Shown in pieces: positions 138 through 17,365 of a stretch of DNA of 24,645 nucleotides. The position numbers were made by a program, and so were the translations under genes. Each line of letters begins with the position of its first letter. Position 1 is the stretch's first letter. The notes under the pieces were generated by a model. The model ran no database searches, had not been told where the DNA came from, and saw only the letters and a program-made list of their open reading frames with translations. Source of the DNA: a virus; IMG/VR virus record IMGVR_UViG_3300012988_000039, positions 1-24,645 of that record; one strand, 5' to 3'.

Positions 138-180
138 ATTTGTATGTTTTTTAATAGCAGGCATTTAGTCACCGCTGATA

Positions 181-188
181 CAAATGTA
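181..188 (-). promoter_or_regulatory. Host-type -7 promoter box for the leftward gene
   Basis: Read on the reverse strand this is TACATTTG, a perfect match to the Bacteroidota -7 consensus TAnnTTTG. A clean TTTG -33 element at the usual distance is not obvious, so strength is uncertain. It would drive the gene starting at 137. Confidence 0.4.
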
Positions 189-189
189 G

Positions 190-219
190 AAAAATATTGC
201 AAATTTGTGCTGAAAATAA
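190..219. promoter_or_regulatory. Operator-like repeat, copy 1 (AATATTGCAAATTTGTGC core)
   Basis: A 30-base block here is repeated at 6267-6296 with only two differences, and its core (TGCAAATTTGTGC) belongs to the five-member TRCAAnnTTGTRC family also found at 1657, 11962 and 16775. It sits between the leftward promoter box at 181 and the rightward promoter at 225, where a bound regulator could control both. Function is inferred from repetition and position. Confidence 0.5.
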
Positions 220-224
220 ATTTA

Positions 225-256
225 TTTGGCTGATATTAAAAAAAGGATTAAATTTG
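225..256 (+). promoter_or_regulatory. Host-type promoter for the structured RNA / 384 gene
   Basis: TTTG at 225-228 is followed after 20 bases by TAAATTTG at 249-256, which matches the Bacteroidota primary sigma consensus (TTTG, about 19-20 bases, TAnnTTTG). Predicted transcription start is near 263-265, so the transcript would begin immediately before the long helix at 269. Confidence 0.6.
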
Positions 257-263
257 TCTGGTT

Positions 264-375
264 ATTTGAGCTGTGGAAGGCATAAATAACAATAAGAATT
301 TTCAAACGAAAGTTTGGCAAAAGACCTCCTTAAAGCCCTTCCACAGCTAAAACTCTGGGAGGTCTTTTTGTTTTT
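264..375 (+). ncRNA. Structured leader or small RNA with two crossing helices
   Basis: Helix A pairs AGCTGTGGAAGG (269-280) with CCTTCCACAGCT (337-348), 12 perfect pairs. Inside its loop is a small hairpin, CAAAC-GAAA-GTTTG (303-316), closed by a GNRA-type tetraloop. Helix B pairs 319-329 with 358-368, 11 perfect pairs, and is followed by a T-rich tract. The left arm of B lies inside the loop of A and the right arm lies outside, so A and B either form an H-type pseudoknot or are mutually exclusive, as in antiterminator/terminator pairs. The terminator ends only about nine bases before the ATG at 384. The element is therefore either a cis-acting attenuator of that gene or a stand-alone RNA of about 110 bases. 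I do not recognise it as a known family. Confidence 0.6.
319..375 (+). terminator. Intrinsic terminator upstream of the 384 gene
   Basis: AAAAGACCTCC (319-329) pairs with GGAGGTCTTTT (358-368) in an 11-bp perfect stem, followed by TTTTTGTTTTT ending at 375. The 28-base loop contains the right arm of the competing helix A. The strong stem plus T tract makes termination likely if helix B forms. Confidence 0.7.
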
Positions 376-383
376 ATGAGGTT

Positions 384-1118
384 ATGAATATTTCTTACTT
401 TCTTATTAAGCAAATGATTGAGGATAAAACTATTCGTCATCTTTGTGTATTAATAAAGTTAAAGAGCATATACGTCAGCGGATGCGTTCATAATTACTCA
501 CCTTACAAACTATCCAAATCCTGCTATATAAGCCGTAACAGTGTTAAGAAATACGTTGACTGGGCCATTGCTAATGGGTATGCCAGGATGGAAGGAACAA
601 GCCTTATATTCACGAAATTCACTAAAGTTCAAAGTAAATACAAGTGGGCAACTATCATGGTTGATTCTGCATTACCAATAAAAAAAATGATTGCTTTGTT
701 GCATAGAGAAATACTGTGTGATGGAGACAGAAAGTTTAGATACCTTATATCCAAAAAGGAGGATTCAAGCAATCCGATGGGCAAAAACGCACTTCATAAA
801 TTAAAGAAAGCTAAAAAGGCTTTAAGAAATTTGAAGGACGTTGCGCTTCTCCCGAATGCCTCAGAGAAATATACGGTATCTATTAAATTAATTGCTACAA
901 AATTCAAATGTTCAGTTGGTAAAGCACAGGGGATAATTAATTCCCTGTGTGAAGATAACCTATTAAAAAGGATCACTAACTATCGCATAATCGGTTCTGA
1001 GACTAGATCAAAAAAGTTTCATAATAATTATGCTAAGGACTATGTAGCACACAATAAAGGCACTTGGTACACAGGTGGAAGTATTATTTTACGCATGACA
1101 AATTCTTATGTTTTTTAA
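384..1118 (+). CDS. Winged-helix-like DNA-binding protein, possible replication or regulatory protein
   Basis: This basic 244-residue protein appears to hold two helix-turn-helix segments. The first is near residues 41-80 (SKSCYISRNSVKKYVDWAI, then a wing-like GYARMEGTSLIF). The second is near 165-200 (ATKFKCSVGKAQGIINSL, then LLKRITNYRII). The central part is lysine-rich. Dual winged-helix layouts occur in plasmid and phage replication initiators and in regulators, and I cannot choose between them. The start is the ATG nine bases after the terminator tract, so expression should depend on readthrough of the structured leader unless another promoter exists. The next gene, an HNH endonuclease, starts 50 bases downstream. 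Confidence 0.7.
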   Translation: MNISYFLIKQMIEDKTIRHLCVLIKLKSIYVSGCVHNYSPYKLSKSCYISRNSVKKYVDWAIANGYARMEGTSLIFTKFTKVQSKYKWATIMVDSALPIKKMIALLHREILCDGDRKFRYLISKKEDSSNPMGKNALHKLKKAKKALRNLKDVALLPNASEKYTVSIKLIATKFKCSVGKAQGIINSLCEDNLLKRITNYRIIGSETRSKKFHNNYAKDYVAHNKGTWYTGGSIILRMTNSYVF

Positions 1119-1167: not shown

Positions 1168-1632
1168 ATGATAACTATTAATTCATATCCTAACTATATC
1201 CTTTATGAAGATGGAAGGGTTTATAGTAATAAAAGAAATATATTTCTTAAACCTCAAACTGACTCGTGCGGATATTTACATGTCGCTCTCCTTAAAGATG
1301 GAAAAGCTAAGATTTTTAGAATACATAAATTAATCGCTATTCACTATTTAAATCATATTCCCTGTGGATATGATAAAGTAATAGATCACATAGATAATAA
1401 CAAGCTTAATAACCACTATTCAAATTTACAAATTGTATCTGCTAGAAAAAACACTTCAAAAGACAGATTAAAAAGAGGCAATTTATCCAAGTCTGTAGGT
1501 GTTTACTTCCTAAAAAGAACTGGTAAATGGAAGGCTACTATTTATTACAAAAAAAGTATTCATTTAGGATATTTTCTTACAGAGAAGGAGGCTAAATCTG
1601 CTTATGATAATGCTTTTGAATTATATAAATAG
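1168..1632 (+). CDS. HNH homing endonuclease with AP2-type DNA-binding domain
   Basis: This 154-residue protein has an N-terminal NUMOD4-like strand region (about residues 5-50). An HNH core follows at about 53-95, with H53, the DHIDNNKLNN segment (H74, N77-N78) and a trailing SARKN. A C-terminal AP2/ERF-like DNA-binding domain spans about 107-150 (GVYFLKRTGKWKATI ... LGYFLTEKEAKSAYDNA). This is the usual design of free-standing phage HNH homing endonucleases, which cut target DNA and spread by recombination. The domain set is complete and there is no sign of decay. It is inserted between the 384 gene and a promoter/operator region (1635-1674). A second, differently built HNH gene lies at 16856. 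Confidence 0.9.
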   Translation: MITINSYPNYILYEDGRVYSNKRNIFLKPQTDSCGYLHVALLKDGKAKIFRIHKLIAIHYLNHIPCGYDKVIDHIDNNKLNNHYSNLQIVSARKNTSKDRLKRGNLSKSVGVYFLKRTGKWKATIYYKKSIHLGYFLTEKEAKSAYDNAFELYK

Positions 1633-2278: not shown

Positions 2279-2307
2279 GTAACCTTATTAATAAACTAAC
2301 AGTATAA
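2279..2307 (+). promoter_or_regulatory. Bipartite phage promoter P2
   Basis: GTAACCTT at 2279-2286 is followed by GTATAA at 2302-2307, exactly 23 bases start to start. The predicted transcript start is close to the ATG at 2315. It drives the block containing the alanine-rich gene and the helicase. Confidence 0.6.
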
Positions 2308-2314
2308 GCCTATT

Positions 2315-2371
2315 ATGTATATAGAAAAAGAAATAAAGAAAGAAGTCGCTTCAATACTAGACATTAAATAA
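2315..2371 (+). CDS. Possible 18-residue peptide, nearly leaderless
   Basis: ATG at 2315 opens an 18-codon frame (MYIEKEIKKEVASILDIK) ending in TAA at 2369-2371. It is amphipathic and charged. The only support is position: the ATG lies eight bases after the GTATAA element of P2, the same distance seen for the real gene after P5 (13521) and close to that after P4 (12642). It may be a leader peptide or chance. Confidence 0.25.
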   Translation: MYIEKEIKKEVASILDIK

Positions 2372-2854: not shown

Positions 2855-4038
2855 TGGAACTGAAACTATCAACCAAACAACAAGTATTCTTAGACTCTGT
2901 ATTAGCTGGTGAGAATGTATTCTTAACAGGCAAGGCAGGAACCGGTAAGTCTTTTGTTGTTATGGAGGCTATCAAGCTCTTAAAGGAGAAGAGGGTTAAG
3001 TTTGTGGCATTGGCACCTACTGGCATAGCAGCTAATAATATCGGTGGACAGACTATACATTCTATGTTCGGGCTTAATCCTTTCGGTATCATGGACTATG
3101 AGTCCTGCCGGTTCCTGACAAGTCATAAGAGAAAGCTACTGGCAGAGATAGAGACATTCTTTATTGACGAAGTGAGTATGATGAGGCCGGATATATTAGA
3201 TGCTATGAACTGGACGCTTTTGAAGAACGGGCTAAAGGGCCTTGATAAAAGGCAGGTTATATTTGTAGGGGATTTAAAGCAGTTGCCGGTTGTTCTGAAT
3301 GATAATTCGAGAGCTGTACTCTATAGGGATTACGATGGAGAAAATTTCACCTATGCTAAGATATACGATAATCTAAATGTAGAAGTGGTTAACCTTGACG
3401 AGATATTAAGGCAGACCGATATTGAGTTTATAGACAACCTAAATAAGATTAGGAATGGCGATAAGAAGGTAAAGTATTTCAGGAAGTTTATTGGCAAGGA
3501 AGCTAATAAAGGCGTTGTGCTGGCACCTTACAATAATATAGTTGAAAGATATAACGTTGATGGATTAGCGTCGCTTGACACAGAGCAATTGACGTTTCAT
3601 GCTAAGATAACTGGTACTGTTAAGCCTGAGGATTTTAATTTGGAGGCTGAGCTGAAGTTAAAACACGGATGTAAAGTAATGTATCTGGCTAATAGTAAGG
3701 ATAATCCTCTTAGAAATGGCACGTTAGGAATATTCATCGCTGTTGACGGGCTTTATTATATACACGTTAATGGAACGGATTACAAGCTGAATATGATGGA
3801 GTTTACCAAGAAAGAATATGTGTTAAATACAGCCACTAATAGCTTAGAACTACAGGATCTTGGCAGCATTATACAATATCCGGTGAGACTGGCTTATGCG
3901 CTGAGTATTCATAAGAGTCAGGGTTTGACATTTGACGAAGTGACTGTTGATTTAACGAGGCCTACGTTTGCGCCAGGACAGCTATATGTGGCGCTAAGCA
4001 GGGTGACAAGTCCGGAAGGATTAAGGATAATAATGTAA
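2854..4038 (+). CDS. PIF1/RecD-like SF1 DNA helicase
   Basis: This 394-residue superfamily 1B helicase has all main motifs in order: Walker A GKAGTGKS (26-33), motif Ia LAPTGIAANNIGGQTIHSMFG (about 53-73), Walker B FFIDEVSMM (D105, E106), motif III FVGDLKQLP (about 137-145), motif V SIHKSQGLTFDEV near the C-terminus, and motif VI YVALSRVTSPEGL. It would hydrolyse ATP to unwind DNA 5' to 3' during phage replication or recombination. Length is that of compact phage PIF1/Dda-like enzymes, with no extra domains. Its ATG overlaps the previous stop (TAATG), suggesting translational coupling to the frame-broken gene. Its own TAA stop forms part of promoter P3. Confidence 0.93.
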   Translation: MELKLSTKQQVFLDSVLAGENVFLTGKAGTGKSFVVMEAIKLLKEKRVKFVALAPTGIAANNIGGQTIHSMFGLNPFGIMDYESCRFLTSHKRKLLAEIETFFIDEVSMMRPDILDAMNWTLLKNGLKGLDKRQVIFVGDLKQLPVVLNDNSRAVLYRDYDGENFTYAKIYDNLNVEVVNLDEILRQTDIEFIDNLNKIRNGDKKVKYFRKFIGKEANKGVVLAPYNNIVERYNVDGLASLDTEQLTFHAKITGTVKPEDFNLEAELKLKHGCKVMYLANSKDNPLRNGTLGIFIAVDGLYYIHVNGTDYKLNMMEFTKKEYVLNTATNSLELQDLGSIIQYPVRLAYALSIHKSQGLTFDEVTVDLTRPTFAPGQLYVALSRVTSPEGLRIIM

Positions 4039-4063
4039 CCTTTAATAAGAAATCATAGTATAA
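4035..4063 (+). promoter_or_regulatory. Bipartite phage promoter P3
   Basis: GTAACCTTT at 4035-4043 contains the helicase stop codon (4036-4038). GTATAA follows at 4058-4063, 23 bases start to start. The 4079 gene begins 16 bases after it. Confidence 0.6.
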
Positions 4064-4078
4064 CCAATAAAAACAACC

Positions 4079-4450
4079 ATGCAATTTTCTCCAAAACTTA
4101 AAAAGGCAGCCGAAGAAATAAAGGCTATATTAAAAAATTATGATATCGCCGCGTCTATTGTTTTACATACTCCGGGTCATAGCGAGTTTATTTTGGAAAT
4201 AACACCTTCATATTCTTGTGCTAAACTAAATCACGACAGCATTCGGTTTAAGGCTAAGAAATCAGATTTTAACGATGAGTTAAAGAGGCGGCAGGTGATT
4301 TCAGATACTGCCAATATGATGAATTTGCTATCTGAAACTACAGCTAAAAATGCCATGATGTTAATTACTGTTTCAGAACAATTTGATAAAATAGTCGGGG
4401 CAGATCATGGAGATTCAAACTTTACATCACATACAACTCAAAACAACTAA
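4079..4450 (+). CDS. Hypothetical protein
   Basis: This 123-residue soluble protein has a lysine-rich helical N-terminus, a central strand-rich part (ASIVLHTPGHSEFILEITPSY) and a helical C-terminus ending in a polar tail (HTTQNN). I recognise no family. It follows promoter P3 directly with the leader AAAACAACC before ATG, and the next gene begins three bases after its stop, so the two are probably co-transcribed. Confidence 0.75.
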   Translation: MQFSPKLKKAAEEIKAILKNYDIAASIVLHTPGHSEFILEITPSYSCAKLNHDSIRFKAKKSDFNDELKRRQVISDTANMMNLLSETTAKNAMMLITVSEQFDKIVGADHGDSNFTSHTTQNN

Positions 4451-4453
4451 AAT

Positions 4454-5167
4454 ATGAAAATTAAAAAAAGAGACAATTGCTATCATATATACACATTTAA
4501 CGAAAAAGAATATGAACAAACCGACTGGATAATATTCTACTGGGGCTGGTACTTTGATATTAGCTTTGAGAAGTGTGGTTACTTTGATAATCGTCCAAGG
4601 ATTAATCTTGACTTAATATTTTTTAGCTTAGAATTTATTTTGCCATTTAGAAACAAATGGACTGATGAGTGTGATTCTCCGAAATATGGTATTTCCATTC
4701 ATGGTAATACATTTTGGATTTATCGTGGAGGAAAAGGAAATATGAATGGGGGTAATAAGTGGTGGACTTGGAATATTCCATTTTTGACAAAAGAATGGGT
4801 AAGGACATCTATTCTATTAAAAGATGGCACATGGGAACATGAGACAAAAGGAAACAGGAAAAGTTTTTACGGAGATTCGTGGAAAGAAAAACAAAAGTCG
4901 TGGACTTACGAGTATACTGACATTTATGATGGAGAGGTTATACCCACTACTATTTATGTCGATGAGCGCGAATGGAGACCTAAGTGGTTAAAATGGACTA
5001 GTTTATTTGCTTCTAAAAGAAGGCAAATTGACATTCATTTCTCAAAAGAAGTTGGTAAACGAAAAGGAAGCTGGAAAGGCGGATGCATTGGTTGTGGTTA
5101 TGAATTATTTCCAAATGAAACGCCAATTGAATGTATTAAGCGAATGGAATTAGAACGTAAATTTTAA
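4454..5167 (+). CDS. Tryptophan-rich conserved phage protein, function unknown
   Basis: This 237-residue protein has about 16 tryptophans, many near Gly or basic residues. The C-terminal part carries GKRKGSWKGGCIGCGYELFP followed by a helix ending ERKF. The two close cysteines (CIGC) could contribute to metal binding, but no full zinc ribbon is visible. The C-terminal block resembles uncharacterised proteins I have seen in other phages, and no activity is known to me. The first third has hydrophobic stretches (DLIFFSLEFILPF) that could be buried strands rather than a membrane segment. It sits in the P3 block. Confidence 0.8.
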   Translation: MKIKKRDNCYHIYTFNEKEYEQTDWIIFYWGWYFDISFEKCGYFDNRPRINLDLIFFSLEFILPFRNKWTDECDSPKYGISIHGNTFWIYRGGKGNMNGGNKWWTWNIPFLTKEWVRTSILLKDGTWEHETKGNRKSFYGDSWKEKQKSWTYEYTDIYDGEVIPTTIYVDEREWRPKWLKWTSLFASKRRQIDIHFSKEVGKRKGSWKGGCIGCGYELFPNETPIECIKRMELERKF

Positions 5168-10217: not shown

Positions 10218-10264
10218 GATTTCTATGTTTAAATGTTAATTTTTATGTGTTAATTCGGCGGCAC

Positions 10265-10352
10265 GCGTTAAGGATTGAAGCGTAAATCCTCACGCCAGCC
10301 CTTTTGCGTGAGATTGAAGCGGAAAGCCTGACCCGCTAGGGTAACGCCCTAA
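10265..10352. repeat. Structured repeat resembling a Bacteroidota interspersed element
   Basis: An 88-base GC-richer block runs from GCGTTAAGG to TAACGCCCTAA, directly against the stop codon of the 10353 gene. It holds two GATTGAAGCG direct repeats (10273-10282 and 10312-10321), a 7-bp hairpin CTCACGC/GCGTGAG (10289-10295 with 10306-10312), and short terminal stems (GGATT/AATCC and TAGGG/CCCTA). From memory, this layout (GCGTTAGGGATT... AGATTGAAGCGGAAAGCC... GGGTAACGCCCTAA) matches repeats scattered in many Bacteroidota chromosomes, so it may have been picked up from a host. Confidence 0.6.
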
Positions 10353-16855: not shown

Positions 16856-17365
16856 ATGAAGGAATTAAGTGATTATTTAGGATATTTAATATCCGAAAAG
16901 GGAGAAATTATAAGCATTAACTATGGAAATAATGGCTATCAAAAGTCTCTAAAGCAACACATAGATCGGACTGGATATCTAACAGTTTCAATATATAAAA
17001 ATGGAAAAAAAATATCTTTTAAAACACATAAATTAGTTGCGTTAGCGTTCATTCCTAATCCTGAAAATAAAGAAACCGTTAATCATATTGACGGAAATAA
17101 ACTAAACAATTCAGTATATAATTTAGAGTGGTCAACAAGAAGTGAAAATTGTCAACACGCATGGGATAACGGATTAAATAAAAGAAGTGACAAATGCACA
17201 AAGGCTGTTTCAGAAGCAACTTCGGTTAAAGTTATTTGCAATGTAAGTAAAAAAGTTTTTCCGAATATTAGAAGTGCTGCATTAGTTTTCGGATGCTCTG
17301 AGTCGCATTTATCCATGATGCTTAGGGGGAAAAGAACTAATAAAACAACTTTTAAATATTTGTAA
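16856..17365 (+). CDS. HNH homing endonuclease with NUMOD4 and NUMOD1 modules
   Basis: This 169-residue protein has an N-terminal NUMOD4-like part (about 8-50). An HNH core follows with THKLVALAFIPNPENKETVN (H58) and NHIDGNKLNN (H77, N81, N84-N85), then EWSTRSENCQHA. The C-terminal NUMOD1-like helix-turn-helix (about 124-160; VFPNIRSAALVFGCSESHLS, then MLRGKR) is a DNA-binding module. It is a complete free-standing homing endonuclease of different design from the 1168 gene. It lies directly upstream of the terminase genes, a frequent insertion neighbourhood. No bipartite promoter precedes it; transcription must read through the terminator or begin within the short gap. Confidence 0.9.
   Translation: MKELSDYLGYLISEKGEIISINYGNNGYQKSLKQHIDRTGYLTVSIYKNGKKISFKTHKLVALAFIPNPENKETVNHIDGNKLNNSVYNLEWSTRSENCQHAWDNGLNKRSDKCTKAVSEATSVKVICNVSKKVFPNIRSAALVFGCSESHLSMMLRGKRTNKTTFKYL

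Follow-up and report, generated by a model that had tools for sequence, protein, structure and literature searches.

We report a structured RNA from a group of uncultured phages in which a long helix crosses the stem of the RNA's own predicted terminator. It lies near the start of the window, by which we mean the whole stretch of DNA analysed, a viral sequence from IMG/VR that is 24,645 bases long and possibly a fragment. There, positions 261-375 most likely open a transcription unit and encode a structured RNA, some 105-115 nt long, that an intrinsic terminator closes. The same crossing pair occurs in five relatives (G008, L051, L080, G013 and G001), with the window as the sixth member, and these six phages, all from one phage group, keep the shape while most letters of the helices differ. 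This pattern marks a real RNA element, and comparison of the six makes it almost certain that the crossing helices and built-in terminator are under selection.

Table 1. Positions of the RNA element, its promoter and neighbouring features in the window, with helix arms of two related loci
Feature	Position	Strand	Sequence and remarks
Promoter, Bacteroidota type	225-256	+	TTTG-N20-TAAATTTG; the window's only exact match to the Bacteroidota form
5' hairpin C	261-290	+	GUUAUUUG (261-268) paired with UAAAUAAC (283-290); A5 displayed in the loop
A5, 5' arm of crossing helix A	269-280	+	AGCTGTGGAAGG; sequence read, pairing energy, covariation
Motif 5' of hairpin D	294-302	+	AAGAATTTT; judged by eye
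Hairpin D, GNRA loop	303-316	+	CAAAC-GAAA-GTTTG; direct reading
B5, 5' arm of terminator helix B	319-329	+	AAAAGACCTCC
A3, 3' arm of helix A	337-348	+	CCTTCCACAGCT; within the 28-nt terminator loop
B3, 3' arm of terminator helix B	358-368	+	GGAGGTCTTTT
U tract	365-375	+	TTTTTGTTTTT; direct reading; TGTTTTT follows B3, up to 375
P, 244-aa winged-helix-like protein	384-1118	+	Homologues in L051 (64%) and G008 (45-46%)
Flavo-1 RNA (RF01705)	10262-10337	+	47 bits (Rfam)
Helix A, L042 (G008)	1360-1368 / 1452-1460		GTGAGACTT / AAGTCTCAC; crossing B GCCTCAA/TTGAGGC
Helix A, L049	2232-2243 / 2307-2318		CAGTAGAGAGTT / AACTCTCTACTG
Helix B, L049	2294-2306 / 2329-2341		92% complementary (repeat search); the remaining pair is G-T

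Direct reading of the window bears out the anatomy given in the original prediction: helix A (12 bp) and helix B (11 bp) are both perfectly paired, and the GNRA hairpin, the promoter at 225-256 and the ATG at 384 are all in place. The two helices cross because their arms interleave (269<319<348<368). This arrangement is poorly visible to standard tools. The nested folding energy of the window leader is unimpressive (z -2.1) because crossing helices cannot both be scored, and a simple terminator scan misses helix B because its loop exceeds the scan's 8-nt limit.

From the promoter onward, the element begins with hairpin C, which has looser equivalents in the relatives, followed by an AU-rich linker, an AAAGA(A/T)TTT-like motif (by eye, in five of the six phages and absent from G013) and a hairpin with a GNRA loop in four of the six, the loop being GAAA in L080 and GCAA in L051 and G001. 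The 3' half runs through B5, a spacer of 0-7 nt (L2), A3, a spacer of 6-12 nt (L3), B3, the U tract and usually a start codon, which in five phages lies about 10-20 nt past the terminator stem. The B loop spans 20-28 nt, and the arms of A and B have no base in common in any of the six. Judged by these arm positions, the spacers leave space for both helices simultaneously, and the sequences are compatible with both at once. The original prediction had proposed either a pseudoknot or a switch in which A prevents B. With regular spacers and no base used by both helices, the sequences suit a pseudoknot or loop-loop complex better than simple mutual exclusion, and direct exclusion of B by A is not borne out.

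Visible competition is of two other kinds, A against hairpin C and, in five of the six phages, A3 pairing with B3. When the growing window transcript is followed by nested folding, in a program that cannot score a knot containing A and B, C forms first, A displaces C once A3 has emerged, and B plus C win once B3 is out. The A3:B3 alternative reaches -9 to -14 kcal/mol; between-phage values for the same pairing go as low as -12, so that it is partly a matter of composition, and we retain it as a possible competitor. In the three leaders that precede P, B5 plus L2 can also pair with the ribosome-site region, which stands out from shuffles in the window (p 0.016), marginally in L051 (0.05) and not in G008 (0.20).

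The manner in which the relatives were found matters for the weight they carry. A homologue of P led to G008 (46%) and to L051/L049 (64%); both loci were located by protein with structure unused, and the crossing helices were read 5' of each start codon afterwards. L080 was retrieved by scanning for 18 bases taken from the upstream flank. Its leader is 79% identical to that of the window over 122 nt, its helix B carries two double compensatory changes, and its helix A is shifted in register and still 11 bp long. G001 and G013 came from a search with a descriptor combining the crossing helices, a U tract and a TAnnTTT[G/A] element. The upstream flank of G013 is 93-94% identical over 191 bp to those of G008 and L051, with divergence beginning at the promoter, and the promoter region of G001 resembles that of L080 (77% over 65 nt). 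The element was not found in Flavobacterium phage Fpv3 or crAss-like cr50_1.

Several other leads were set aside. An exact-pattern scan of IMG/VR for the window's arms gave five matches without helix A, judged to be chance, as were the pieces of about 28-36 nt that were all blastn returned for the L080 and G001 leaders against GenBank phages. Relatives found through the helicase shared with the window, besides that gene, only weak HNH matches in the stretches compared and had no RNA element. Searches with P0001 found no relative among phages or plasmids, in viral contigs (single query) or in genome contigs (single query and alignment A1).

Covariation, which the original prediction had named as its check, is found in both helices across the five relatives. 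In the 9-bp core of A all 54 cells are paired, with 2-4 pair types per column, every column variable and 36 both-side changes when the window is the reference; matching the A arms of different phages pairs 110 of 252 cells. The 7-bp core of B is paired in 42 of 42 cells, again with every column variable, against 95 of 196 between phages. Pairing energies tell the same story: a phage's own A5:A3 helix is worth -14.9 to -23.6 kcal/mol, the window's being the -23.6, whereas between-phage combinations give -0.5 to -11.7, except for window and L080 (-20 to -22). Since the cell counts use arms picked for pairing, the weight rests on the shuffle controls and on the loci found by homology.

The strict descriptor has no match in 9.9 Mb of dinucleotide shuffles. 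In its relaxed form it gives 2 matches with a score of at least 39 in 20.6 Mb and 12 with a score of at least 38 in 25.8 Mb, 3 of the latter with a -7 element just upstream, a rate of about 0.12 per Mb. In 1.97 Mb of real sequence, both strands counted, a score of at least 38 together with the element picks out exactly six independent members (L079 is a second copy of the G013 stretch and not a separate member); five further matches on other contigs, scoring 38 to 42.5, are without the element. The purine- or pyrimidine-rich character of most arms raises chance pairing, to 44-48% of between-phage cells, and could suggest an ordinary terminator beside an unrelated inverted repeat. The shuffle controls speak against such a coincidence, and it is already refuted by recurrence of the arrangement at the corresponding place in G008, L051 and L080, relatives that gene or flank homology and not structure had brought in; this leaves it scarcely credible.

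The promoter call uses the -33/-7 Bacteroidota consensus of PMC7366714. With 0.66 exact matches expected by chance, the match in the window is weak when taken alone; the call is supported because the motif recurs at a similar distance in the relatives. Equivalents of the form TTTG-N19/20-TAnnTTT[G/A] precede the element in L080, L051, G013 and G001, G008 has only the -7 element, and in all six phages a promoter-like element lies 10-18 nt 5' of A5. The originally proposed leader-type RNA, in which a promoter precedes two crossing helices and a terminator, is supported. Both the Flavo-1 RNA, not found in the scanned stretches of the relatives, and the type of promoter fit a Bacteroidota host, which is probable from these features and not proved by them. 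The window's terminase has low identity to those of crAss-like and Flavobacterium phages and 49-79% identity to IMG/VR contigs of up to 76 kb.

A DNA-binding-protein gene had been predicted just downstream. P makes this plausible through HTH_36, MarR and DnaD-like matches in family searches; these winged-helix matches are weak, so that a role in replication or as a regulator is a guess. The same searches gave no toxin match, a ThsA match was judged generic and weak, the AlphaFold model was too poor for use (pLDDT 42), and a PDB profile search returned nothing usable. The RNA itself is not tied to P, which follows it in the window, L051 and G008. In G013 an unrelated 96-aa ORF takes this place. 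L080 has only a 9-codon ORF, then about 350 nt free of long same-strand ORFs and a GIY-YIG gene, and G001 has a similar gap and a GIY-YIG-like gene, with no start codon close behind the RNA. Comparison of the loci indicates that the RNA element and the following gene occupy a variable slot and are exchanged together. Since the slot is exchanged and its content differs, we regard the RNA as an element with its own promoter and terminator and not as a leader bound to one gene.

Other features of these loci deserve mention (coordinates for G013, G001 and L080 refer to the reverse complements of L054, L055 and L080). ORF-poor stretches of 200-400 nt follow the RNA at L080 6110-7126, L055 3481-4307 and L054 13340-13700; those of L080 and G013 have parts in common (72-74%). 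These stretches are possibly intron-like, and for L055 and L080 Rfam had no convincing match. In G013 a small 59-aa gene beside the unit (L054 13738-13917) has the opposite orientation to its counterpart in G008 and L051, suggesting rearrangement at the slot. The window carries two HNH endonuclease-like genes (1168-1632 and 16856-17365, + strand); at the position of the first, after P, G008 and L051 have an ORF of roughly 90 aa. A cluster of five tRNA genes lies just upstream of the unit in G001 (L055 2544-3130, - strand), and L080 has a reverse-transcriptase-like gene with a YADD motif, by eye of the diversity-generating-retroelement kind (3670-4650, - strand).

What would such an RNA do? The chances are about even that it is a conditional terminator, or attenuator, mainly controlling readthrough into the following gene. 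Two hairpins would present complementary loops, C near the 5' end showing A5 and the terminator hairpin showing A3, and their pairing would create a pseudoknot or loop-loop complex with which the terminator stem can coexist. Helix A could already form while the terminator's 3' arm is still untranscribed, and how often polymerase reads through would depend on the balance between A, C, helix B and A3-B3 pairing. We infer that this RNA is transcribed, that only some transcripts terminate and that A pushes termination in one direction; the short terminated RNA may also pair in trans with new leaders and so provide feedback, as in P4 CI RNA or IsrK. Because A and B share no base, no classic antiterminator is evident from the sequence.

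Control of the next gene may not be the function at all, since no comparable gene follows the RNA in L080 and G001. A tentative alternative is a stand-alone small phage RNA acting in trans, for example by binding a host or phage factor, with knot and terminator as its working fold and the next gene expressed by leakage. The spacing of the two helices is compatible with this, and the unit is kept while the content behind it changes; against it, the terminator is closely linked to a start codon in five of the six phages, few letters beyond the AAAGA(A/T)TTT motif and the GNRA loop are conserved for a partner, and the 24.6-kb window holds no other complementary site with fewer than three mismatches in 12. 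Quite unlikely, in our view, is homoimmunity or self-incompatibility, in which, when a phage of the same type infects, the A5 loop would pair with its leader at A3 and bring about termination before its regulatory gene, the arms diversifying in specificity. The six phages do represent five mutually unmatched specificities, only the window and L080 cross-matching, the unit is exchanged as a cassette while the flank upstream of it stays 93% identical, and the logic is that of P4 CI RNA as described in PMC4825925. Since G013, G018 and the L080 record G019 encode tyrosine integrases, part of the group may be temperate; the records of the window, G008, L051 and G001, which may be incomplete or lack one, showed no integrase. 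This reading also presupposes action in trans, and drift with compensation would diversify the arms too.

The RNA is apparently undescribed, and we assign it to no known system. Type III toxin-antitoxin leaders of the ToxIN type likewise place a pseudoknotted RNA and a terminator ahead of a gene; here, however, there are no tandem RNA repeats (nor any direct repeats in window 180-400), the terminator is part of the knot, and P is winged-helix-like with no toxin match in family searches. That the RNA was originally matched to no known class agrees with Rfam release 15, where the leader has no match at gathering score and Flavo-1 is the only hit, elsewhere in the window; positions 200-420 gave sub-threshold noise, the best by E-value scoring 24.7 bits against a cut-off of 65 on the other strand.

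In pT181-type plasmid attenuators, an antiterminator sequesters the 5' half of the terminator, and the switch to OFF comes from a complementary antisense RNA (PMC4878617). The likeness lies in a 5' hairpin governing an intrinsic terminator ahead of a gene and in a loop-loop start of pairing, but no overlapping antiterminator of this sort is seen here: A5:B5 pairing is worth only -9.3 to +0.3 kcal/mol, while B5:B3 reaches -11.5 to -19.8. Nor did reading of the opposite strand of the window, G008 and L051 leaders reveal a Bacteroidota -7 element (in reverse, CAAANNTA); antisense-type control was among the options originally suggested. The P4 CI/seqA-seqC leader has mutually complementary segments, termination before replication genes and antisense specificity (PMC4825925). 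Complementary segments are found here too, but the P4 antisense arises by processing and binds both an upstream and a downstream site, whereas here one 5' loop faces the loop of its own intrinsic terminator, and Rfam links the window RNA to no related family. Like the present element, the small RNA IsrK (Gifsy-1 prophage) has a promoter and an intrinsic (Rho-independent) terminator of its own and alternative structures, and in IsrK readthrough yields the mRNA for the next phage ORF; the available part of its description includes no crossing terminator helix (PMC4825925), the host group differs, and again there is no Rfam match here.

Taken together, these observations describe, for phages with few annotated relatives, a strongly covarying structured RNA that matches no Rfam family and whose terminator is itself part of the crossing fold. 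It is unlikely, though conceivable, that it represents a new class of phage RNA, in which a single self-terminating transcript carries both the recognition loop and its target loop, specificities are interchangeable, and the role in uncultured Bacteroidota phages is RNA-based homoimmunity or control of the cassette. If the RNA regulates, it would represent termination control whose controlling helix has no base in common with the terminator. Its unmatched specificities form a natural set directly testable for orthogonality, and the element marks an exchanged gene slot in these phages.
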